From a virus: a stretch of DNA of 21,992 nt. The notes under the pieces were generated by a model. That model was not told the DNA's origin and searched no databases. It was given only the letters and a program-made list of their open reading frames with translations. Of the stretch, positions 2,626 to 21,818 are shown piece after piece. Position numbers and translations under genes: made by a program. The stretch lies in the IMG/VR virus record IMGVR_UViG_3300017991_003649, positions 1-21,992 of that record. One strand, written 5' to 3'. The first letter of the stretch is position 1; each line of letters starts with the position of its first letter.

Positions 2626-2818
2626 CGTTTCTTCCCTCTATTCCTTTTAAATGGACCATTTCTCTTGGGATTGGAACTGATATTGGAATGTCTGGGAATG
2701 AAGCGTAAACATAATCTTCATCAACAAAGGATATTTTGCCGTCTCTGTCCTTGCCTTCTCTGATTACGTCCCCGGCAAGTGGGGGCGCGAATTGAGATGC
2801 GCGACTTTTATGCCCCAT
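2456..2818 (-). CDS. Unknown 120-aa minus-strand protein, 3' end overlaps the plus-strand gene
   Basis: It reads leftward from an ATG at 2816-2818; an in-frame stop just upstream leaves no alternative ATG. Residues 1-60 look like a genuine small domain, with a GDVIR motif, FVDEDYVY and PIPREMVHLKG, resembling an SH3-like barrel. Codon use there is phage-like, and the plus strand (2626-2886) has no gene. From about residue 66 the frame runs antisense to the plus-strand gene and becomes a low-complexity His/Gln/Lys/Glu tail followed by a Cys/Ser/Glu-rich end. There is no good Shine-Dalgarno, which lowers confidence. The protein could be cut short by an unseen sequence error; otherwise this is a real 170-base antiparallel overlap. 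Confidence 0.5.
   Translation of the reverse strand: MGHKSRASQFAPPLAGDVIREGKDRDGKISFVDEDYVYASFPDIPISVPIPREMVHLKGIEGRNVRAWRVVQPCQRHHQKEHHKEHQKEHQQESTHPETCESCESSSSAESYEQLEQDHD
2548..2583. repeat. Three 12-base tandem units inside two opposed reading frames
   Basis: Three units of GATGTTCCTTCT or GATGTTCCTTAT lie head to tail. On the plus strand they encode Asp-Val-Pro-Ser/Tyr; on the minus strand they encode the Lys/Glu/His/Gln-rich tail of the 120-aa gene. The unit length is a multiple of three, so unit gain or loss keeps both frames. Confidence 0.8.
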
Positions 2819-2856
2819 ACTTTATCTTTGCTTGTTACATAAGGATACTTGAGTTC

Positions 2857-2893
2857 TAGACACAAAAATAACTACGGGATCATATTGTGTCTA
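2857..2893 (+). promoter_or_regulatory. Inverted repeat covering the GTG start at 2887
   Basis: TAGACACAA (2857-2865) pairs perfectly with TTGTGTCTA (2885-2893) across a 19-base spacer. The right arm contains the GTG start codon at 2887, and the spacer holds the only weak ribosome-site candidate (ACGGGA). As RNA this would bury the start codon; as DNA it could be an operator between the diverging genes at 2818 and 2887. The function is inferred. Confidence 0.4.
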
Positions 2894-3129
2894 AGTTTGC
2901 TTTTATATGCGACAGGCATGATTCAATAAAATCTTGGTCTGATGACATTGAAGCAGAAGCCGATAAGATAGAGAACACCAGATTACGCAGACGAATAATT
3001 TCACTTGCCAGAAAGATACAAAAAGAGGTAGTGAAAGCCAAAGACTCTGGTCAGTCTATGGAAAATCGTTTGATGGAGTACAGTCAAGCCATAGAAGGTC
3101 TCGGGTTCAAGAGATCTAAGAAAACATAA
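2887..3129 (+). CDS. Unknown 80-aa protein, GTG start
   Basis: The start is GTG at 2887; no in-frame ATG fits the charged helical body better. The product is 80 residues, mostly helical and charged. Residues 18-70 are rich in Lys, Arg and Glu with a coiled-coil-like spacing of hydrophobics, and the C-terminus is basic (RSKKT). There is no recognised family. It sits 15 bases before the gp13-like gene, so it is probably co-transcribed with it. The weak Shine-Dalgarno and the inverted repeat over the start suggest controlled translation. Confidence 0.6.
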   Translation: MSKFAFICDRHDSIKSWSDDIEAEADKIENTRLRRRIISLARKIQKEVVKAKDSGQSMENRLMEYSQAIEGLGFKRSKKT

Positions 3130-3144
3130 TTCAAGAGGATAGCT

Positions 3145-3882
3145 ATGGCAATCATATCACCAACAGACTTACCAAAAGTCCTAAGAGTTGACTCAAACCC
3201 ACTTAAGTTGCGCATTTTACATCACTTTGGTCACCCAAATGTCAGAGTCGAATTGACAGAAGAGCAACTTGAAGAGATGTTGAGGGTTGTTGGCGATTTT
3301 ATAGCCCAATATTTTCCCAAGGAAGAGAGGTATGCTTTTTTCTACACCAAACCTCTTGTAGCAACTTATGACTTGCCAGAGGATGCATATTGGGTAAGGG
3401 AAGTGGGTTGGGACCCAGTAGTTACCAGGATCAATGACATTTTCAGCGCCGAGATGTTCCTGTTTAATATCGGCAATATAACTGGTATCCAGAACATGTT
3501 ACTGGACTATCACCTACTTCAGGCGTATCGCAAGTTTTCCCAACGTATTTTAAGTACAGAGGGAAGTTGGGAGGTTGGTGGAGACAACAAAATCCGCCTG
3601 AAACCCACTCCGAAAGGCAGCTTCCCGGTTATTGTTCGATATATTCCATCAGTTGATGAATTTAAGCTTCCATCAGCAAAAGACGTTTGCACTAGAGCAT
3701 TAATAGCTGAGGCTAAGATCATACTGGGTCACACCCGTCGTAAACTCACATTACCATCACCGGACGGAGGTACTTTACAGTTGGATGGCGCTGAACTCGT
3801 CAATGAAGGGCGAGAGGAAAAGAAGGAAATCATCCAAGACGCCATTAATCTTGGTGAACCACTAGGTTTCATTATTAAATGA
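3145..3882 (+). CDS. Neck protein, T4 gp13-like
   Basis: A 245-aa protein matching the T4 gp13 pattern; gp13 forms part of the head-tail neck. The N-terminus has a 'LRILHHFGHPNVRVELTEEQL' type segment, like the gp13 start where a small domain is followed by a ligand helix. The C-terminus has a LPSPDGGTLQLDGAELVNEG-type stretch then an acidic helix ending in PLGFIIK, close to the gp13 ending (LPGGVTVDGQ..., then PPFGILVG). The protein is shorter than T4 gp13 (about 309 aa), with a compact middle. The ATG at 3145 is preceded by AGAGGA at 3134-3139. In T4 gene 14 follows directly; here about 4 kb of accessory genes lie between. Confidence 0.78.
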   Translation: MAIISPTDLPKVLRVDSNPLKLRILHHFGHPNVRVELTEEQLEEMLRVVGDFIAQYFPKEERYAFFYTKPLVATYDLPEDAYWVREVGWDPVVTRINDIFSAEMFLFNIGNITGIQNMLLDYHLLQAYRKFSQRILSTEGSWEVGGDNKIRLKPTPKGSFPVIVRYIPSVDEFKLPSAKDVCTRALIAEAKIILGHTRRKLTLPSPDGGTLQLDGAELVNEGREEKKEIIQDAINLGEPLGFIIK

Positions 3883-9934: not shown

Positions 9935-12790
9935 ATGGCTGTTTATCTGTCGCCGGGTGTCTACCCTCGCGAGATTGATCTAAGCCTGCTCGCCACTGGC
10001 GTAGGTCCTGTTCGTCCTGTGTTCATCGGGACTGCCCAAAAGGGTCCGATGAATACTCCCACCCTTATCACGAGTTCGGCACAATACATCGACGTGTTCG
10101 GTGAGCCATTCCCAGAGAGTTACCTGGGATATGCTGTATTGGCCTACTTCGAAAAGGGCGTGGAGTGCTTCGTAGAGCGCGTAGGCGTCGAGGCAGAAGA
10201 TGGACAGGTTGAAGATTTGGCCAGCATTGCCATTGACACCAGCGGGGCAAGGATCGAAGGTTGGGGTCGTATTCCGGTCTTTACCGGGATCGATTTTGGT
10301 AAGATCCAATTGCGCACCCCAAGCGCAGAAGAGCCTTTTGCATTCCATGTGGCATCGGTCGATAACATTGATTATAGTGATATCGCCATTGATTCATCCG
10401 GATCAGCCACGGCAACTCTGAGTTTTACTGGCTCCGGTTTGTCGGATGCCTACACTGGGTCAATTGACGACTCATTTGTTGTTCTCATAACAACAAATCC
10501 AGATCAAACCGGTGGATCAGTTCTTGATGGTGCAGAATTCACCATTACTCAGAACAGCACTGGTGATGTGATTGAGAGCGGCACAATCGTTGAGAGCGTC
10601 ACCCCAGGCGAATCAGAGCCAATAGATGTTGGCGATACTGGGTTGAGCTTCTCAATTGTTGTTACTGGTTCAATCCCAATCGGAGAAGGTGACACATTCA
10701 CCTTTGAAGCACATCCGGATAACCTCACTTTCGGATTCAATGTCGATCGTGCTGGTTCTGTCACGGAGTACTCATTCACTGATGGTGACACCTATACTGA
10801 TATTGATAGCTTCGTAACCGCATTCAACACATTGATTGGCGGCGGCGAAGATTATCAGGCAGTAAACATCGATGATGAGCTTTATGTTCGTACCGATACT
10901 GCCGGCCAGCCAGTCCAGCTGATGTCAACCGAAGCATGGTCACTTGAGGTTGGTCAAAGCCTCTATGCTTGGGATATCCCACGCAGCTACCTGATTTCAA
11001 CTGATGCTGGTCCGTTCAACATCACGACTTCAAATGATAGAGTTACCATTAATGCGATTGGCGATTCAACCACCACAGTTGAATTTTCCATCCCGCATGG
11101 TCTTGACCAGAGCGCATCAGCCATCGCTAGTGCGATACACCTTGGTGGTGTCCAGCTTGGTGTTCGCTATTGGCGCAGTTATGCCATGCAGGTCACTGAT
11201 GATGAGTATAGAGTTGTCATCGAAACCGATGTTGGCCAACAGTTCAGCATGTTGGAGATGCTTTCTAACTCTAGTAACATTAAGACCTTGCGTTTTGCGG
11301 AAGAGCTTGAAATTCTCTACCCGTATAAGCGCAACTACCGTGGTTTCTGGGACAGCAGAGTTGAGCTGCCAGAAAGCGGTAGCATCACCCCAGAGACGCC
11401 TGCAAGTTGTGAGTCAGACCCTGGTAGTGCTGCATGCGCTGTTGATAGTGCCTACTACTCCAACATTGTTGGATGGTTTGTTGCACCATCGGCCGGTACT
11501 TGGGTTGATGAATACACCATAACTGTCAGAATCTTTACTGAGGGTATTGGTGATTCAGCCAATCGTTATGTTGTTGAGGTTTATGACAGCAACGACCTTA
11601 TCGTTGAACGTGTTGAGGATGTATCATTTGACTCATCTGATGAACGATATATTGGCAATGTGGTTAACCCAGGTTCTTCTATCGGTGGAACCAATGGTAA
11701 TGCTCTGATAAACTGGGATGACCGTCCGTCATGGCTTGCCAATGATCCAATGGATTCAAGCTTCGAAGTTCGCAATCCGGCTGAATTTCATCAGGTGCCA
11801 TATACTGGTCAAGCTAATGGTATCCCAGAAGATCCGATCTACAGTTCAGAGCTTGATCGCGCAATTATTGGTAACCCAGCTCTTGGTTCTGGCTTGTTTG
11901 CCTTTGAGAACCCAGAAGCATATGATGTAAATCTTTTATCAACTCCTGGTTTCTCATCCGGTGCTGTCATTGGTCAGTCAATCCAACTGTGCCAGTCACG
12001 TGGTGACATGCTTTATGTTGTTGATCCGCCTTACGGCCTTCGCCCACAACAGGTCATCGATTGGCATAATGGCATGCTTACATCTGATCTTGGTCAGGCG
12101 ATCAACAGCTCCTACGCCGCACTTTACTGGTCATGGCTGAAGATCTTCGACCAGTTCAGTGGCGAGGACATCTGGATTCCACCGAGTGGACACGTTCTGT
12201 CGGTATTTGCTTACACTGCTGAAGTTGGGGAACAGTGGTATGCCCCAGCCGGTCTACAACGCGGTCATTTGTTGACCCCGATCGATATCGAATACAACCC
12301 GAACCTCGGTGAAAGGAATGCCCTCTATGGTTCAGGAAACGCGGTCAACCCGATTGTGAACTTTACCCAGGAGGGTATCACAATCTGGGGCCAGAGAACG
12401 CTCCAGCGATTTGCTTCTGCGCTCGATCGTGTGAATGTTCGAATGCTCTTGATCTATATGAAGAAGAATTTGGTAAGAGCGCTTCGACCAGTCGTGTTCG
12501 AACAGAACGATCGCATCTTGTGGTCGCAGGTACTTAATATCACAGAGCCATTCCTTGGTGACATTGTGGCAAGACGTGGTATTGAGGCCTTCAAGGTTGT
12601 GTGTGACGAGACCAATAATACGCCAGAAAGACGTGACCGTAACGAGCTGTGGGTGAGTGTATTCTTCAAGCCCGTTAAGGTTGCAGAATTTGTGGTTCTG
12701 AACTTGGTTATCCTGAGAAGCGACGCGTCCTTCTCCTCTGACGAAGTTTTGGCAGCTGGCGGCGTAGTCACCAACCAGTCCGCAGCGTAA
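9935..12790 (+). CDS. Tail sheath protein, T4 gp18-like, unusually large
   Basis: A 951-aa contractile tail sheath subunit. The N-terminus (YLSPGVYPREID, then TAQKGPMNTP and a 'Y.DVFGEPFPESYLGYAVLAYFEKG' stretch at about residues 48-75) is diagnostic for myovirus sheaths. The C-terminal domain from about residue 820 carries the conserved LQRFASALDRVNVRMLLIYM and FKVVCDETNNTPE segments that form the inner sheath core. T4 gp18 is 659 aa. The excess lies at about residues 110-500: Ser/Thr/Asp/Gly-rich, beta-stranded, exposed protrusion-type domains. The ATG has AGGAGA at 9923-9928. A terminator follows, so this is probably its own strong transcript. In infection the subunits assemble around the tube and contract. 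Confidence 0.93.
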   Translation: MAVYLSPGVYPREIDLSLLATGVGPVRPVFIGTAQKGPMNTPTLITSSAQYIDVFGEPFPESYLGYAVLAYFEKGVECFVERVGVEAEDGQVEDLASIAIDTSGARIEGWGRIPVFTGIDFGKIQLRTPSAEEPFAFHVASVDNIDYSDIAIDSSGSATATLSFTGSGLSDAYTGSIDDSFVVLITTNPDQTGGSVLDGAEFTITQNSTGDVIESGTIVESVTPGESEPIDVGDTGLSFSIVVTGSIPIGEGDTFTFEAHPDNLTFGFNVDRAGSVTEYSFTDGDTYTDIDSFVTAFNTLIGGGEDYQAVNIDDELYVRTDTAGQPVQLMSTEAWSLEVGQSLYAWDIPRSYLISTDAGPFNITTSNDRVTINAIGDSTTTVEFSIPHGLDQSASAIASAIHLGGVQLGVRYWRSYAMQVTDDEYRVVIETDVGQQFSMLEMLSNSSNIKTLRFAEELEILYPYKRNYRGFWDSRVELPESGSITPETPASCESDPGSAACAVDSAYYSNIVGWFVAPSAGTWVDEYTITVRIFTEGIGDSANRYVVEVYDSNDLIVERVEDVSFDSSDERYIGNVVNPGSSIGGTNGNALINWDDRPSWLANDPMDSSFEVRNPAEFHQVPYTGQANGIPEDPIYSSELDRAIIGNPALGSGLFAFENPEAYDVNLLSTPGFSSGAVIGQSIQLCQSRGDMLYVVDPPYGLRPQQVIDWHNGMLTSDLGQAINSSYAALYWSWLKIFDQFSGEDIWIPPSGHVLSVFAYTAEVGEQWYAPAGLQRGHLLTPIDIEYNPNLGERNALYGSGNAVNPIVNFTQEGITIWGQRTLQRFASALDRVNVRMLLIYMKKNLVRALRPVVFEQNDRILWSQVLNITEPFLGDIVARRGIEAFKVVCDETNNTPERRDRNELWVSVFFKPVKVAEFVVLNLVILRSDASFSSDEVLAAGGVVTNQSAA

Positions 12791-12887: not shown

Positions 12888-13274
12888 ATGGAATGTGAAA
12901 GGTGTGGTGTTGATGGCACACCACAAACAGAAGCGTTTTTGGCCATGGTGTTATCTTATGAGAAGATGGCTGCTGAGGGATTAGATCCAGACACTGATAG
13001 AGAAACTCTGAGGAATGGTGCCAATATCAAGTTTCCCATGATTGTGCATTATCCAGTATCTGAAGCACCAGAACTAGAAGCATTTCCTAGCAATAAACAT
13101 GGTCTGGTATCGTTATGTATAAAATGTATGCACGAAATGGAATTAGATCCTGAGGTTGTCTCACCAGGAAACCCACGAGATGCGGTTGACTTTAAGAAGT
13201 TATATGACGAGGCCCTGCCTTCGATTCAAGACAGGGCCATATCAGACGTTAAGAAAAGAGTGAGTAATAATTAG
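12888..13274 (+). CDS. Unknown 128-aa protein with two CxxC zinc-type motifs
   Basis: The ATG at 12888 has TAGGAGGA (12875-12882) upstream. CERC at residues 3-6 and CIKC in the second half could form one four-Cys zinc site. The middle is acidic and helical (LDPDTDRETLRNG), and the C-terminus is a charged helix. There is no catalytic motif. The gene lies between sheath and tube, where T4 has none, and ends tail to tail with a minus-strand Cys-rich gene, overlapping it by four bases. Function unknown; a small zinc-binding regulator or virion-associated protein is possible. Confidence 0.75.
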   Translation: MECERCGVDGTPQTEAFLAMVLSYEKMAAEGLDPDTDRETLRNGANIKFPMIVHYPVSEAPELEAFPSNKHGLVSLCIKCMHEMELDPEVVSPGNPRDAVDFKKLYDEALPSIQDRAISDVKKRVSNN

Positions 13275-13768
13275 GATTTCTTTTTCTTGAAGTCCGGACA
13301 TTGGTTGCATTTTCGGTCTGTGGTCAAGGTATGCTTGCTACATTTATACGCATCGACCTTATTGATTTTTCCACCACAACATTCCTGATCTACCTCACCT
13401 ATTTTGCCACCATTATTCTCACAGTTATCCGCTTTTTTATCCTGTGGGAATATAAAATATCTGATTCTATTTAGTAGATCAATACCCTGCTCTGGAACTA
13501 CCATCTCCAATTCGTCGAGGTCAACACGAACCTGCTTTAGGCGCTCTTCGTGTTCCTTTTTTCGCTTTTCCATTTCTTCAAGGTACTTCTGGGCCTCCTC
13601 TGGCAGTTGATTTTTAGAAGCGCCCAAAGGAATGCCAAGCGGACATCCCCATTCGTCCTTCCCCCACCCGCCATGTTGCTGTTCCATGGCTTTTCTAAAA
13701 TTCTCGTCATTGCGGCAGTGGAAGCACATTTGGTGTAATTTGCATTGTTGTGATTCTATGAAAGACAT
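13271..13768 (-). CDS. Unknown Cys-rich minus-strand protein (165 aa), moron-like
   Basis: It reads leftward from the ATG at 13766-13768, with a near-perfect AAGGAGGAG ribosome site just upstream on its strand; an in-frame ATG at 13879 adds 37 residues without a ribosome site. Cys/His groups occur at the N-terminus (CKLHQMCFHC), in the middle (CPLG), and at the C-terminus (CCGGK, CSKH, CNQC). Between them is a long charged helix (about residues 55-90, Lys/Glu-rich), probably a coiled coil. It looks like a multi-zinc protein. It sits against the direction of the tail operon and has its own upstream region, as expected for an independently expressed insertion. No family recognised. Confidence 0.72.
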   Translation of the reverse strand: MSFIESQQCKLHQMCFHCRNDENFRKAMEQQHGGWGKDEWGCPLGIPLGASKNQLPEEAQKYLEEMEKRKKEHEERLKQVRVDLDELEMVVPEQGIDLLNRIRYFIFPQDKKADNCENNGGKIGEVDQECCGGKINKVDAYKCSKHTLTTDRKCNQCPDFKKKKS

Positions 13769-13893
13769 TGGCTCCTCCTTGTCAGAGTAAAATACTGTCG
13801 GATGATGTACACGATCACTAGCATAACATCTATAATGTAAATACTTCTGATCAAACATAAAACGGATGATACCAAACAAATAAGGAGAGCAAT

Positions 13894-14415
13894 ATGCCAG
13901 GCTTCAATATTGGTGGATCAGGTGGTGAACAGATCATCAGTGGGCCTAACTCGGTTAGTGAGCCGCGCAGAACATATCGGTGGATATTTGAAACGTTGGA
14001 TGGCATGAACCAGAATGCTCTGGTATACCTGAAGACCTGTTCAAGGCCGAATGTTACTCTCGAGCCAATCGAGATGCACCACAACCAGGAAAGGGCATGG
14101 TTTGCTGGTCGTACCAACTGGGAAGCTATTTCCATGAATTGGTATGATATTGAGCAGGACCTCGACACTTCACAATCTATTTATGATTGGCTTGAAGTTA
14201 CTACCCAGATTCCGGACGCAAACGTCTCGCTTCCCTCTACATATAAGAAAAAGGGTAAGTTGCAGATGACGGACCACGAAGGTTCAGCCAAGGAAACATG
14301 GGAATTACACAATTGCTGGCCGACCAATGTCAACTGGAATGAGCTTGACTATTCAACCAATGACATCGTTTTGATCTCAGTCAGCATGCGCTATGATCGT
14401 GCGGTGAGACAGTAA
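13894..14415 (+). CDS. Tail tube protein, T4 gp19-like
   Basis: A 173-aa protein, near T4 gp19 (163 aa), which stacks as hexameric rings forming the inner tail tube. A Gly-rich start (MPGFNIGGSGG) is followed by a YRWIFETLDGM strand, a long middle, and a C-terminus of the tube type: ELHNCWPTNVNWNELDYSTND then a strand SVSMRYDRAV (gp19-like 'LkNAWP..V....LdYs..eI..V..tlrYD'). The ATG at 13894 has AAGGAGA at 13882-13888. It is followed by a terminator-like hairpin, then by a second member of the same family. Confidence 0.85.
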   Translation: MPGFNIGGSGGEQIISGPNSVSEPRRTYRWIFETLDGMNQNALVYLKTCSRPNVTLEPIEMHHNQERAWFAGRTNWEAISMNWYDIEQDLDTSQSIYDWLEVTTQIPDANVSLPSTYKKKGKLQMTDHEGSAKETWELHNCWPTNVNWNELDYSTNDIVLISVSMRYDRAVRQ

Positions 14416-14440: not shown

Positions 14441-14472
14441 ATGGCCACCTGCTTGTGGGTGGCCATTATTTT
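14441..14472 (+). terminator. Terminator-like hairpin between the two tube genes
   Basis: A perfect 9-bp stem ATGGCCACC (14441-14449) with GGTGGCCAT (14458-14466), followed by TATTTTA. It lies 25 bases after the first tube stop and just ahead of the second tube gene, so it may lower transcription of the second copy. Confidence 0.65.
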
Positions 14473-14484
14473 ACGGAACAAGAC

Positions 14485-15000
14485 ATGCCCGGATTTGTAA
14501 TTAATGGTCAGGGTGGCGGTCAAGAGACCCAAAATCCTTCTGCAAGTGATTTTGGCGCTGGTGATCCACATCGTGCCTATAGGTGGGCTCTAAAAAGCTT
14601 GGGGTCGATAATAATTGATGAATTGATGCCGGTATATGAGATGAATGTCCCGGCAGAGACCCTACAAGTCCTTGAGATAAAAGGTGTTTCACAAGTTTAT
14701 AAATTCGCCAAAAGTATAGTTTTTGAAGATTGCAACGTAACATTTTATGATGTTGGCCAAATGCATACCATCATGCATGGATGGAGGAATTTGGTTTGGA
14801 GTGATAATGATGGCCTACAAAAAGAATATAAGAAAATAGTGGAATTCATGTTACTTGGTAATGAAGGTGAAAATGTTAGAGGATATAAATTGCATAATGC
14901 GTGGCCCAAAAAAATAGGCCATAGCCAACTCAGCATGTCAACAAACGAATTCAAGCTATTAACAGTAACATTTGCATTTGACTGGATAGAAGTAAGTTAG
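14485..15000 (+). CDS. Second tail-tube-like protein (paralog of the preceding gene)
   Basis: A 171-aa protein that matches the preceding tube gene in layout: MPGFVINGQGG start, AYRWALKSLG at the position of TYRWIFETLDG, YKLHNAWPKKIGHSQLSMSTNEFKLLTV near the C-terminus, then a final aromatic strand. I chose the ATG at 14485 because its first residues match the paralog; an upstream in-frame GTG at 14455 lies inside the terminator hairpin. Codons are more AT-rich than in the first copy, suggesting lower expression. It could be a tube-end or baseplate-proximal ring protein, or a minor tube subunit. Confidence 0.78.
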   Translation: MPGFVINGQGGGQETQNPSASDFGAGDPHRAYRWALKSLGSIIIDELMPVYEMNVPAETLQVLEIKGVSQVYKFAKSIVFEDCNVTFYDVGQMHTIMHGWRNLVWSDNDGLQKEYKKIVEFMLLGNEGENVRGYKLHNAWPKKIGHSQLSMSTNEFKLLTVTFAFDWIEVS

Positions 15001-15045: not shown

Positions 15046-16062
15046 ATGTCTAAATCCGATCAGGATGACCGTACCAATAAAGAACTTGATATCGCGAGTT
15101 TGGATGACTTCAGCAAACACAAGATTGACTTGTCTAAAGAAGCAGAAGGTAAAACTCAATCCGAACTGTTGGATCTGGTTCTGTCAAAAGAAGAAGATGA
15201 ATTGGTGCCGTGGGAACCAGTGAACCTACCCAGTGAAGGTGCCTATTATGATGGTGCTCTTCCTGGAGGAACAGTTGAAGTTAGGCCAATGGGTATTTAC
15301 GCTGAAAAGGTATTGTCGACACTGCGTCTGGCCAAATCTGGTGAAGCCCTTGATTTGATCTATAGCAAGTGCGTCCGCTATCCTGGTGACTTTGATCCGC
15401 TCAACCTATTGGTTGGTGATAGCACCTTCCTTCTCTATTACCTTCGTGGTATAACATTTGGCAACATGTACGAATTCATTGTCAAGTGTAGTGATCCAGA
15501 GTGTGGTTGCTCCATGACAAAGCAGTTCGACTTTAATACTCTGGCCGCCACCATTAAGGGGCCGGTGACAGAAATCGGTGAAGAGCCGTTTGAGGTTAGG
15601 CTTCCGTATCTCAGTGAGTCACTCGGAGCAGATTTTATTGTAAAGGTCAGGCTGGTTCGGCGATATGATCTCAAGACGATCATCTCCGGCCGCAAAACCA
15701 GGGATAAGCTACTTGCTCCGACCAATGCTCGACCAAGCTCCTTGTCTAAGAATTTCCGCAAGGTGCAGACAACCAGGTCACTCAATGACATTGTCGAGAA
15801 GAACCTGAATCTCGTCATTGTGGAAGCCATGGGTGAAACCAGCCAGTCTAAGATCAATGGTCTGGTCAGCAGGTTACATTCTTCTGATTCATCCACTATC
15901 AGGGAATTCCTCAATGACGTATCTCCCGGCATCGACACCACTGTCACCATCAATTGTGATGAATGTGGCAATGAGATGCAAGTCACTCTGCCAATCACCG
16001 AATCCTTTTTTCGTCGAACGGTCATCGGAGGAAATAGAGAACACGTGGAAGCACCTTCTTAG
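15046..16062 (+). CDS. T4_baseplate / gp26-like protein, tail-assembly chaperone position
   Basis: A 338-aa protein. An acidic N-terminal region (1-55) is followed by a LPSEGAYYDG motif (about 63-72) and PMGIYAEKVLSTLRLAKSG, the signature start of the T4 gp26-type baseplate family. A YYLRGITFGNMYEFIVKCSDPECG region and a C-terminal CDECGNEM complete likely zinc-binding Cys pairs. The ATG has AGGAGGA (15031-15037). It follows the tube genes, where many phages encode a tail-assembly chaperone made in two forms by frameshifting. A second frame overlaps its 3' end (see 16013-16249). Whether it is a baseplate part, a chaperone or both is inference. Confidence 0.72.
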   Translation: MSKSDQDDRTNKELDIASLDDFSKHKIDLSKEAEGKTQSELLDLVLSKEEDELVPWEPVNLPSEGAYYDGALPGGTVEVRPMGIYAEKVLSTLRLAKSGEALDLIYSKCVRYPGDFDPLNLLVGDSTFLLYYLRGITFGNMYEFIVKCSDPECGCSMTKQFDFNTLAATIKGPVTEIGEEPFEVRLPYLSESLGADFIVKVRLVRRYDLKTIISGRKTRDKLLAPTNARPSSLSKNFRKVQTTRSLNDIVEKNLNLVIVEAMGETSQSKINGLVSRLHSSDSSTIREFLNDVSPGIDTTVTINCDECGNEMQVTLPITESFFRRTVIGGNREHVEAPS

Positions 16063-16249
16063 GCAACAATTTGTCTTAAAAGACGGTTGCGGTTTAAGTC
16101 TGTTTGAACAATCTATTATGACTTCCGAAGAACGTCAAGTATGGATAGACATGCTGAGCGAGAAGAGGGAGCAGGAAAAGAGAGAAGCTGAGGCTTCCAA
16201 GAACGCTGGTTCCCAAGTACACGGTCCGGGTTCCGGACCGCCATCCTGA
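16013..16249 (+). CDS. Frameshift extension of the gp26-like protein (+1 frame)
   Basis: The +1 frame relative to the gene at 15046 is open through its 3' end and continues to TGA at 16247-16249. It lacks an ATG with a ribosome site near the overlap; the first ATG past the overlap (about 16118) has none. At 16006-16011 the main frame reads TTT TTT followed by C, so tRNA-Phe can slip from TTT to TTC and continue in this frame at 16013, giving about 322 + 78 residues. The extension has a helical, charged ending (FEQSIMTSEERQVWIDML, then REQEKREAEAS), typical of chaperone C-terminal extensions such as lambda GT. Independent initiation is the alternative. Confidence 0.55.
   Translation, partial: VERSSEEIENTWKHLLRQQFVLKDGCGLSLFEQSIMTSEERQVWIDMLSEKREQEKREAEASKNAGSQVHGPGSGPPS
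16222..16240 (+). other. Strong hairpin near the end of the extension frame
   Basis: CGGTCCGG (16222-16229) pairs perfectly with CCGGACCG (16233-16240) across a 3-base loop. It lies inside coding sequence for Gly/Pro/Ser residues, 7-8 bases before the TGATG stop/start at 16247-16251. There is no T-run after it, so it is not a typical terminator; it could slow ribosomes or control the coupled start. Confidence 0.6.
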
Positions 16250-17480: not shown

Positions 17481-20400
17481 GTGGCCGTCCCAGAGATTCC
17501 CTGTAATCCTCGTAGTTCATCGTCTCAGTTTTATGATGTCAGGGCGAGTGACTTATACGACGATCGCATACCAGATCCACATAATGGCGATGTGGCCGAG
17601 GGTCAGCAGGCCTTACAGGCTGACCTAAACATGCTACGTACCCACATGCGCATAATGAAGGGTACGCAGTATTGGTATGATCCATGGGACTTTTGTGGTT
17701 GTCAAGGAGCTCAAGGTCCACAAGGTGGTTATGGATTTCAGGGATTTCAAGGCGAGATGGGTCCACAGGGTCAATTTGGCCCTCAGGGTAACCAAGGTTA
17801 TGGCCATCAAGGTCCACAGGGTGATGTTGGTGAAGGCGTCCAGGGTGGGCAAGGTCCACAGGGCGATGAAGGTATTGATGGCATTGATGGCATTGATGGC
17901 CAACAGGGTGCCCAGGGTGACCTAGGATATCAAGGTCCAGCCGGCATTGATGGCATCCAGGGTCCGCAAGGTGAGAAGGGTGAACTTGGTAATCAAGGTC
18001 CACAGGGTAACCTCGGTCCTCAGGGCATGGAGGGATCACAGGGTGACATAGGCCCACAGGGCATTGAGGGTCCACAGGGCGATCGTGGCCCACAGGGTCT
18101 TGAAGGTCCACAGGGTGATAAGGGCCACCAAGGTGAGGAAGGTCCTCAAGGTGATCGTGGACCTCAGGGTTCAGAAGGTCCGCAGGGTGATAAGGGCCAC
18201 CAAGGTTCCGTTGGTCCGCAAGGTCAAGAAGGCCCTCAAGGTGATGTTGGCCCACAGGGTGCCGAAGGTCCTCAGGGCGATCAAGGTTATCAAGGCATTG
18301 AAGGTCCACAGGGTGATATCGGCTTCCAGGGCAACCAAGGCAATCAAGGTGAAAAGGGTGACCAAGGCCCGCAAGGCTTCCGTGGCTTCCAGGGTAGTAC
18401 CGGTGCTCAGGGTAACCAGGGTAGTCAAGGCGAAAAGGGTCACCAAGGTGACCAAGGCGTTCAGGGTTATCAAGGTAAAGTTGGTGCCCAAGGCAACCAG
18501 GGCCACCAAGGTGACCAAGGCCCTCAGGGCTTCGTAGGTATACAAGGCGTACAAGGCTACCAAGGTAAAGTCGGTGCTCAGGGTAGTCAAGGCGAAAAGG
18601 GTCACCAAGGTGATCAAGGTCCGCAAGGTCTCACTGGTGTCCAAGGTAATCAAGGTAATCAAGGCGAAAAAGGCCACCAGGGTGACCAAGGTCCTCAGGG
18701 CTTTATTGGTGTTCAAGGTACCCAGGGTAATCAGGGTGACTTCGGTCCTCAGGGAACGCAAGGATGGCAAGGAGAAAAGGGCCACCAAGGCGACCAAGGC
18801 CCACAAGGTACAATCGGATTTCAGGGCAATCAAGGTAACCAAGGCGAACTTGGCCCACAAGGTTATAGAGGTGTCCAGGGCTATCAAGGTAAAGTTGGTG
18901 TCCAAGGTAATCAAGGTCATCAAGGAGACCAAGGTCCTCAGGGCTTTATTGGCGTGCAAGGTGTTAAGGGTAACCAAGGTGATTTTGGGCCACAGGGATC
19001 TCAGGGTTGGCAAGGAGAAAAAGGCCATCAGGGTGATCAAGGTCCACAGGGCATCGTTGGTAGCCAAGGCAATCAAGGCCACCAGGGAGAGCTTGGCCCA
19101 CAAGGTTATAGGGGTGTTCAGGGTTACCAAGGTAAAGTTGGTGCCCAAGGCCATCAAGGTGACCAAGGTCCGCAAGGCTTTGTTGGTGTACAGGGTGTCC
19201 AGGGTTATCAAGGCGACTTTGGCCCACAGGGAGCACAAGGTTGGCAGGGTCTTAAGGGCAACCAGGGTGATACCGGCCCACAGGGCAATCAAGGCCTAAA
19301 GGGATTCCAAGGTGATGAGGGTCCACAGGGTTATCAAGGCAATCAAGGTGAGTTAGGATTCCAGGGTCCACAGGGGTTCTTTGGTCCACAGGGTTATTCA
19401 CCACAAGGCCCACAAGGTCCAGAGGGAGACCAAGGCCCACAGGGTATCAGAGGACCGCAAGGCTGGCAGGGTAGTCAGGGATGGCAGGGCAACTTTGGCC
19501 CTCAGGGTGATACCGGCAACCAGGGTAATCAAGGTTTTGGACATCAAGGTGTCCAGGGACCATCTGGCATCGATGGACAGCAAGGTCCTCAAGGTTGGCA
19601 AGGCATTGTTGGCCAAGTAGGTCCACAGGGTCACCAAGGAAATCAAGGTGACCAAGGTCCACAGGGATGGCGCGGTTACCAAGGTGACGTCGGTGCAACT
19701 GGTGCACAAGGTCCTCAGGGCTGGCAAGGTGATGAGGGTGATCAAGGCCCACAAGGCTTTGTTGGCCCACAGGGATTCACTGGCGTCCAAGGTGTCCAGG
19801 GTTATCAAGGTGATTTTGGTCCTCAAGGTACACAGGGCTGGCAGGGAGACCAAGGCCCTCAGGGTTTACGCGGATTTCAGGGCGGCATTGGCTTCCAGGG
19901 CAATCAAGGATGGCAGGGTCTCAAGGGCGACCAGGGAGACCAAGGCCCTCAGGGTCTACGCGGATTCCAAGGTTACACTGGCCCACAGGGAATGCAGGGC
20001 AACCAAGGTCTGAAGGGTAACCAAGGCGACCAAGGCCCACAAGGTTTTGTTGGTGCGCAGGGTAACCAAGGTGAACGTGGATTCCAAGGTTGGCAAGGAA
20101 ACATTGGTCCACAAGGCAACCAGGGTAATCAGGGCGAAAAGGGTGACCAAGGATTCCAGGGCAATCAAGGTTTCCTTGGCCCACAAGGTTTTTCTCCACA
20201 AGGCCCACAGGGTCCAATAGGATTCCAGGGAGATCGGGGTCCACAAGGTGGTCAGGGGTTCCAGGGCAACCAGGGTTTTAAGGGAGACCAAGGAAATCAG
20301 GGAGACCAAGGCCCACAAGGACTCCGAGGATTTCAAGGTCTGAAGGGTAATCAAGGTGACCAAGGTCCACAGGGGGATCAGGGGTTCCAGGGTCTCAAGG

Positions 20401-21818
20401 GCAATCAGGGAAATCAGGGTCCACAAGGACTTCGAGGATTCCAAGGCAATGTCGGCCCTCAGGGCGACTTAGGATTCCAAGGTTGGCAAGGTGATCTTGG
20501 CCCGCAAGGTGACGAAGGGTCACAGGGCAACCAAGGATTTGGCCAACAGGGTGTTCAAGGCCCGGCTGGTATTGATGGTCAACAGGGTCCACAAGGTTGG
20601 CAGGGTGTTGTCGGCCAGATAGGACCACAGGGGTTCCAGGGTTGGCAGGGAGAAAAAGGCCCGCAGGGTGACCAAGGTTGGCAGGGTAATCAGGGATGGC
20701 AAGGTGGTCAAGGCCCTCAGGGGTGGCGTGGTTATCAGGGTAATGTTGGTTCTCAAGGCTTTACCGGCGTCCAGGGTGTTCAGGGTTATCAAGGCGACTT
20801 TGGTCCACAGGGGGCGCAAGGTTGGCAAGGTGATCGTGGTTATCAAGGCAACCAGGGATTCCTTGGTCCCCAAGGTTTTTCTCCTCAAGGACCACAAGGC
20901 CCAACGGGAGACCAAGGGGATCAGGGTCCGCAGGGACTTCGTGGATTCCAGGGAGACCAGGGACCTCAAGGTAATCAAGGTCTTAAGGGAGACCAGGGAC
21001 CTCAGGGTAATCAAGGTCTAAAGGGAGACCAGGGACCTCAGGGTAATCAAGGTAATCAAGGTCTTAAGGGAGACCAAGGACCTCAGGGTAATCAAGGATT
21101 TCAGGGTCCACAGGGTCTGAAGGGAGATCAAGGTCCACAGGGAGACCAAGGATTCCAGGGTAATCAAGGGGATCAAGGGGATCAAGGGGATCAAGGGGAT
21201 CAAGGACCTCAGGGTAATCAAGGATTCCAGGGTAATCAAGGGGATCAAGGGGATCAAGGACCTCAGGGTAATCAAGGATTCCAGGGTAATCAAGGGGATC
21301 AAGGGGATCAAGGGGATCAAGGGGATCAAGGGGATCAAGGGGATCAAGGACCTCAGGGAGACCAAGGGGATCAAGGATTCCAGGGAGATCAAGGTCCACA
21401 GGGTAACCAAGGATTTCAGGGTCCACAGGGATGGCAAGGAGACCAGGGCTTCCAGGGACCCCAGGCTCCATTTGATGCTGTGTTCTGTGTACAATTTGGT
21501 AGGGATAATAATGTTTCAAATTCCTACCTTGATTGGGCCGGGTCTACGCCATCAAACCAATCACCACATGTGTTACCATTTAATGTCACACTTGTTGCTA
21601 TTTCAGCCGCAACAAATGGTAACGAAACATGGACGGTCGAGGTTAGGGATGAAACTGGAACGATTTATGCTGGTGCATCTTTGGCTATAGCCGCATCGGA
21701 TAGTGGCTATTCTGCTGGGTATTCAGTAGACCTTGATGCTGGTGATAAAGTTACTGTATACGTCAATGGTTCTTCTATTAGTAAACCGACTGCCACATTG
21801 TGGTTTAAGAGGCGATAA
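17481..21818 (+). CDS. Giant collagen-like fibre protein (Gly-X-Gln repeats)
   Basis: A 1445-aa protein starting with GTG at 17481 (TGGAGA ribosome site, 17469-17474). Residues 1-70 form a non-repetitive N-terminal domain with a helix ([14 protein letters not shown]), probably the attachment end. Residues 73-1328 are collagen-like, about 418 Gly-X-Y triplets with a few interruptions. X is mostly Pro, Asn, Asp, Phe, Trp, Tyr or His, and Y is nearly always Gln; no Pro at Y. A Cys-Gly-Cys (72-74) at the triple-helix start could cross-link three chains. Residues 1329-1445 are a beta-rich C-terminal domain ([28 protein letters not shown]), likely a trimerising or receptor-binding knob. The protein should be a long thin trimeric tail or head fibre. 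The stop overlaps the next start (TAATG). Confidence 0.92.
18699..19175 (+). repeat. Tandem 81-residue (243-base) collagen repeats
   Basis: Two head-to-tail copies of a 27-triplet module start at 18699 and 18942; the second lacks one triplet. A third partial copy starts at 19176. Each runs GF(I/V)[44 protein letters not shown]. Copies differ mostly in synonymous and X-position changes, indicating older duplication. Confidence 0.8.
19524..20630 (+). repeat. Two 35-residue blocks 1002 bases apart within the collagen gene
   Basis: Blocks at 19524-19628 and 20526-20630 are both 105 bases and match at about 31 of 35 residues: GNQ, an interrupted GFG(H/Q)Q, GVQ, GP(S/A), [13 protein letters not shown](I/V)V, GQ(V/I), GPQ. 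Their offset is exactly a multiple of three. A third related part (GYGHQ and GID repeats) lies near 17790-17900. Confidence 0.75.
21168..21347 (+). repeat. Short tandem repeats of GGGGATCAA (Gly-Asp-Gln)
   Basis: Units of nine bases, GGG-GAT-CAA, occur four times (21168-21203), twice (21240-21257) and six times (21294-21347). The groups are separated by two identical 36-base spacers (21204-21239 and 21258-21293). Units are identical in sequence, unlike the rest of the gene, so they look recently expanded by slippage or recombination and could vary in number between isolates. Confidence 0.9.

Follow-up and report, generated by a model that had tools for sequence, protein, structure and literature searches.

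Introduction

Frameshifting between the G and T frames of tail-chaperone genes is widely conserved among long-tailed phages 'except T4', according to the review by Atkins and colleagues (PMC5009743). The GT protein of phage Mu is made by a −2 shift, and a +1 shift has been predicted for the tail chaperone of HSTV-2 (PMC5009743). In T4, gp26 and gp51 are described as hub assembly chaperones, and gp51 as essential but not part of the particle, its function being unknown (PMC3004832). Among +1 shift sites elsewhere, that of influenza A PA-X is UCC_UUU_CGU (PMC3498833).

Here we analyzed the window, the whole 21,992-nt stretch of a virus record from IMG/VR (IMGVR_UViG_3300017991_003649), in which a gp26-like gene very probably yields a short and a long form of a tail chaperone from one start by programmed +1 frameshifting at 16006-16012, as judged from sequence comparison. 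As in lambda gpG/gpGT, a tube gene lies directly before the gene in the window, the tape-measure gene comes next in the relatives LIS04 and immuto, and the gene is predicted to make a short form and a low-abundance long form through a shift near its 3′ end that appends a C-terminal T-type extension. Unlike the lambda pair, the shift is +1 in 64 of 68 dereplicated loci, and the proteins are of the PF12322 and T/DUF6760-like types, in which similarity to G or T was not detected. The locus would be a variant on the lambda G/GT theme. Mu GT and HSTV-2, compared by description only, likewise belong to contractile-tailed phages that reach the +1 frame in a tail-chaperone gene. The window site shares the UUU_CGU P/A-site pair with PA-X, and the TTTCTTT variants found in relatives carry CUU_U, the +1 shift site of bacterial prfB. 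As the genes are unrelated to PA-X and prfB, these likenesses are convergent at most.

Results

The gp26-like gene of the window and its neighbors

A preliminary description made from the window alone had noted a gp26-like frame ending at 16062 while its +1 frame continues to 16249. The window sequence and the ORF list confirmed this arrangement: the 338-aa frame is overlapped by a +1 frame that is open between 15818 and 16249 (Table 1). Its gp26-like identity was borne out by a match to PF12322 over residues 72-323 (E=1.5e-12, 48.1 bits vs the curated cut-off of 24.5) and by a match to the 'baseplate hub' family PHROG 150 (E=4e-16). The PF12322 homology stops at residue 323, directly after both Phe codons of the slip site. 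Past this site the 0-frame tail of the short form is 16 residues, and the long form, in which gp26 is joined to T, would be 400 aa. The stop codon of the T frame and the start codon of the next gene overlap as TGATG, so that translation of the latter would be coupled to the T frame.

Table 1. Positions of the frameshift gene, its elements and neighboring tail genes in the window
Feature	Position	Strand	Basis
Tail sheath protein	9935..12790	+	PHROG 23 E=1.4e-82
Tail tube protein (gp19-like)	13894..14415	+	PF06841 E=2.9e-11
Second tail tube-like protein (gp19-like)	14455..15000	+	PF06841 E=8.5e-8; directly 5′ of frameshift gene
Short form, T4 gp26-like (PF12322) hub/tail assembly chaperone (predicted)	15046..16062	+	PF12322, PHROG 150
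Slip site UUU UUU C, in frame as UCC_UUU_UUU_CGU	16006..16012	+	Sequence; context shared by L013/L014
T domain in +1 frame, stop TGA 16247-16249	16010..16246	+	Family conserved in relatives, AlphaFold2
GGAGGA, Glu codons in T frame	16027..16032	+	Not enriched in relatives
Next gene, 190 aa	16249..16821	+	ORF list, sequence

Two adjacent gp19-like tube paralogues are also present in a relative, L014 (1623-2150 and 2197-2757); one of the two may form a specialized ring. The sheath protein of the window is 951 aa long, with about 650 residues preceding the conserved sheath core, and a Cys-rich 202-aa ORF lies on the minus strand opposite and between the tail genes (13271-13879). A tape-measure gene was not found downstream of the frameshift gene within the window. 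This gene adjoins the frameshift gene in Listeria phage LIS04 and Flavobacterium phage immuto, and a putative tail protein is encoded there in Bacillus phage SP-15. Shortly 3′ of the tail genes, at a place where one would look for a tape measure, the window encodes a 1445-aa collagen-like protein with G-x-Q/G-P-Q-G repeats and a GTG start (17481-21818).

The T family lies in the +1 frame of most gp26-like loci

Using gp26 queries only, we searched for relatives among named phages by tblastn and obtained about 100 further loci by scanning IMG/VR and cellular genome contigs. Distant gp26 homologues were detected in Bacillus SP-15, Listeria LIS04, Flavobacterium immuto, Microcystis Mel-JY01, Xanthomonas XacN1, Rhodothermus RM378, Streptococcus GXN1, Agrobacterium Atu_ph07 and two huge phages. 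In each of the named-phage relatives, the gp26 frame stops shortly past a Phe-Phe (or Phe-Leu) pair, where another frame opens. A tblastn search of plasmids with the gp26 proteins of the window and SP-15 gave no match, a genome contig scan with query A3 gave no relative, and the wide alignment A1 was too diverse for a motif scan. The gp26 gene of L014 is split into two frames (2803-3105 and 3108-3740) far 5′ of the slip site, probably by a sequencing or assembly indel; in the relative L002/L013, gp26 reads through as a single frame.

In total, 109 gp26-like loci were collected without reference to T, which was then placed with a profile of the region downstream. T was located in the +1 frame at 104 loci and in the −1/+2 frame at four, and one locus ran into the contig end. 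After dereplication (<70% identity), the +1 and −1/+2 frames accounted for 64 and 4 of 68 loci, respectively; as the loci share ancestry, these counts do not represent independent events, and the random third positions of upstream codons were used as an internal control. The conservation of the T protein family in 104 of 109 loci indicates that the +1 overlap is more than chance.

T evolves as a protein. In the T frame past the 0-frame stop, 12 independent close pairs differ by 91, 78 and 286 changes at codon positions 1, 2 and 3, respectively, a third-position bias that constitutes a coding signature. AlphaFold2 modeled the window fusion with a mean pLDDT of 80, and T was predicted as a helix-turn-helix (helices at residues 327-348, 352-356 and 360-389) with a charged tail. 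The window T domain did not match DUF6760 (PF20546) in the Pfam profile search. DUF6760 matched T of the relative L077 just under the cut-off of 27 (7.8e-6, 26.3 bits), and others weakly but in register. Direct searches of Pfam and PHROGs with T gave only weak matches, such as that of one relative only to the tail assembly chaperone family PHROG 32580 (E=0.048). As for known G or T proteins, no sequence match was found in PDB, and Foldseek gave nothing significant there, with E=3.8 for the HK97 chaperone.

Slip codons are conserved at the nucleotide level

The TTTTTTC heptamer pointed out in the preliminary description is present in the window, with TTTTTT at 16006-16011 and C at 16012, and is read in frame as TCC TTT TTT CGT; its context, TTTTTTCGTCGAACG, is identical in L013/L014. 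On this site, the P-site tRNA on UUU could re-pair with UUC at +1. The 7-mers counted from the first Phe codon in the 64 dereplicated +1 loci are TTTTTTT (53), TTTTTTC (4), TTTCTTT (3), TTCTTTC (2), TTTCTAT (1) and TTTTTTA (1). In the same loci, the information content at the third position is 1.80 and 1.88 bits for the two slip codons vs 0.01-0.08 bits for upstream codons, and only 74% of the Phe codons elsewhere in these genes are TTT. Thus, the slip codons are kept at the nucleotide level, their third positions being fixed while the upstream ones are random. Re-pairing at +1 is permitted in 63 of the 64 loci, on UUU_U, UUU_C or CUU_U (at the first Phe codon in L003); the sole exception is LIS04 (UUU_A), which lacks perfect +1 re-pairing.

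The base preceding the run differs with the direction of the shift. It is T in only one of the 64 +1 loci, as compared to 31% expected from other third positions (P~1e-9), and in all four −1/+2 loci (Fisher P 6e-6 vs the +1 loci), a comparison that rests on these few −1/+2 loci (n=4). In three of the four, a canonical −1 heptamer results from this T, namely U_UUU_UUC in L005 and Atu_ph07 and U_UUU_UUU in XacN1. The +1 loci look as if they avoid the −1 heptamer U_UUU_UUY, and selection on the direction of the shift would be the simplest reading.

The GGAGGA 3′ of the slip site, which had also been pointed out in the preliminary description, is present in the window but is not a conserved element: as a stimulator it was rejected, SD-like 4-mers near the slip site not being enriched among the 64 dereplicated +1 loci (6/64 downstream and 8/64 upstream, at a control rate of 9%). 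No general 3′ RNA structure was found across the loci (median z −0.4). In one subclade (L055, L031, L058, L057, L064 and L083), a strong short hairpin of the GGGCC...GGCCC type is located 5-6 bases 3′ of the slip site and is a possible stimulator; the 0-frame stop falls within the hairpin loop or close to it.

Alternative routes to the T frame

We considered whether T is a separate gene whose translation starts in the overlap, either at a ribosome site of its own or through termination-reinitiation. A start codon (ATG, GTG or TTG) occurs in the T frame near the junction in 39 of the 64 dereplicated +1 loci, and GenBank annotates short ORFs in this frame in SP-15 (L004), immuto (L006), Atu_ph07 (L012) and also Mel-JY01. 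However, 25 of the 64 loci have no such codon in the stretch that reaches from 20 codons 5′ of the junction to 12 codons 3′ of it, a start with an SD-like sequence is found in only 8 of the 64, and no start codon of T is conserved across the +1 loci. In the window, start codons of the T frame are located only upstream, within the gp26 frame, 13-18 codons before the junction, and none has an SD-like sequence, in agreement with the earlier remark that the overlap lacks an ATG with a ribosome site. Moreover, the annotated ORFs of SP-15, immuto and Atu_ph07 begin inside or past the conserved first helix of T, the slip codons are fixed at synonymous positions, and the domain is fused in eCIS and in T4 gp51. 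A separate T gene is therefore highly improbable. Instead of carrying T as a gene with its own start and ribosome site or losing the overlap, the relatives keep both the slip site and the two overlapping frames, as the preliminary description had anticipated for a frameshift. That the overlap reflects an error of sequencing or the decay of a gene is scarcely conceivable: the window is a single metagenomic contig, and L014 has an apparent indel elsewhere in gp26, but the changes in T are biased to third codon positions and the same layout occurs in >100 records including the complete isolate genomes of SP-15, LIS04, immuto, Mel-JY01 and RM378, a conservation that refutes this reading.

Two further explanations would bring expression into the same frame at the slip site itself. 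The ribosome might slip by −2, as reported for phage Mu GT (PMC5009743): the P-site tRNA-Phe can re-pair two bases back at the T6-T7 runs UUU_UUU_U/C, which would give one extra residue (FFF), and the TTTTTTA of LIS04 suits −2 better than +1. Clean re-pairing by −2 is, however, impossible at the TTCTTTC and TTTCTTT variants, where +1 works (UUU to UUC and CUU to UUU), and we consider a −2 shift unlikely. Alternatively, RNA polymerase might slip on the T run, which comprises at least seven T's in 53 of the 64 loci. Seven T's are a short run for transcriptional slippage, and the TTTCTTT, TTCTTTC and TTTCTA sites retain the +1 T frame in spite of lacking a long homopolymer, which makes this explanation very unlikely.

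T-like tails in eCIS proteins and T4 gp51

In extracellular contractile injection (eCIS) loci of cellular genomes, gp26 and a T-like tail are encoded in one frame and fused immediately behind the FF(W) position, the same residue as the slip junction of the phages. The gp26 gene follows the sheath and gp19 tube genes, and, of three regions that were inspected, two also contain Pvc16_N and/or AAA genes. DUF6760 matched the eCIS tail of L124 above the cut-off (2.2e-7, 31.3 bits).

In T4, PF12322 covers residues 1-206 of the 208 in gp26 (9e-64) and 1-201 of the 249 in gp51 (4e-52). When eight T4-like phages were aligned, gp26 stopped at the junction and gp51 continued with a tail of ~50 residues. 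In profile comparisons, in which the likeness is remote and short throughout, T scored 23.6 against the gp51 tails (hhalign; maximum of 150 column shuffles, 14.7) and 18.2 against the eCIS tail (shuffle maximum, 14.2), and the eCIS tail scored 23.3 against the gp51 tail (shuffle maximum, 14.0). Genes 26 and 51 are divergent in T4 and adjacent on one strand in EC-F2 and KM3, the latter arrangement being as expected from tandem duplication. T4 gp51 is paralogous to gp26 and bears a T-like tail; we infer that it is equivalent to the long form and that gp26 corresponds to the short form. In contrast to the frameshift proposed for the present phages, T4 uses two separate genes and no frameshift. 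In an open-access literature library, we found no paper that equates gp26 and gp51 with short and long forms.

Discussion

The programmed +1 frameshift to a long form, proposed in the preliminary description, gains support from features that can be read in the sequences: the two frames, the conserved slip nucleotides, the conserved T family, the eCIS fusions and the pair of short and long paralogues that gp26 and gp51 appear to form. From these we infer that slippage occurs, how large and how frequent it is, and that the products act as chaperones. Most ribosomes would read on to 16062 to produce the short gp26-like chaperone of 338 aa, and some would slip forward by one base on the T run to produce the longer protein with T. 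If lambda gpG/gpGT is taken as a guide, coating of the tape measure would fall to the short form, and the long form would bring in tube subunits or hub parts.

The frameshift has apparently been replaced by the duplicated genes 26 and 51 in T4 and by a single in-frame fusion in bacterial eCIS. It is probable that one ancient two-form tail chaperone, the gp26 domain with or without T, is made by three routes: a +1 (rarely −1) frameshift in the majority of phages that carry gp26 but do not belong to the T4 group, duplication of the gene in T4 phages (short gp26 and long gp51), and, in eCIS, an obligatory in-frame fusion that would yield the long form only. A single base 5′ of the Phe-Phe run would largely decide the direction of the frameshift. 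T4 would have a G/GT pair after all, with gp51 as the GT equivalent.

The family provides a large natural data set of bacterial +1 shift sites, including the PA-X-like UUU_CGU, with a simple candidate rule for direction, and it corrects how the T frame, overlooked or cut short by gene callers, is annotated. Conservation of the device extends over very diverse phages. Should gp26 and gp51 be the short and long forms, T4 would be an exception in appearance only: these results suggest that T4 would not depart from the tail-chaperone frameshift but would have split the two forms into two genes, which opens the roles of both proteins to direct tests.
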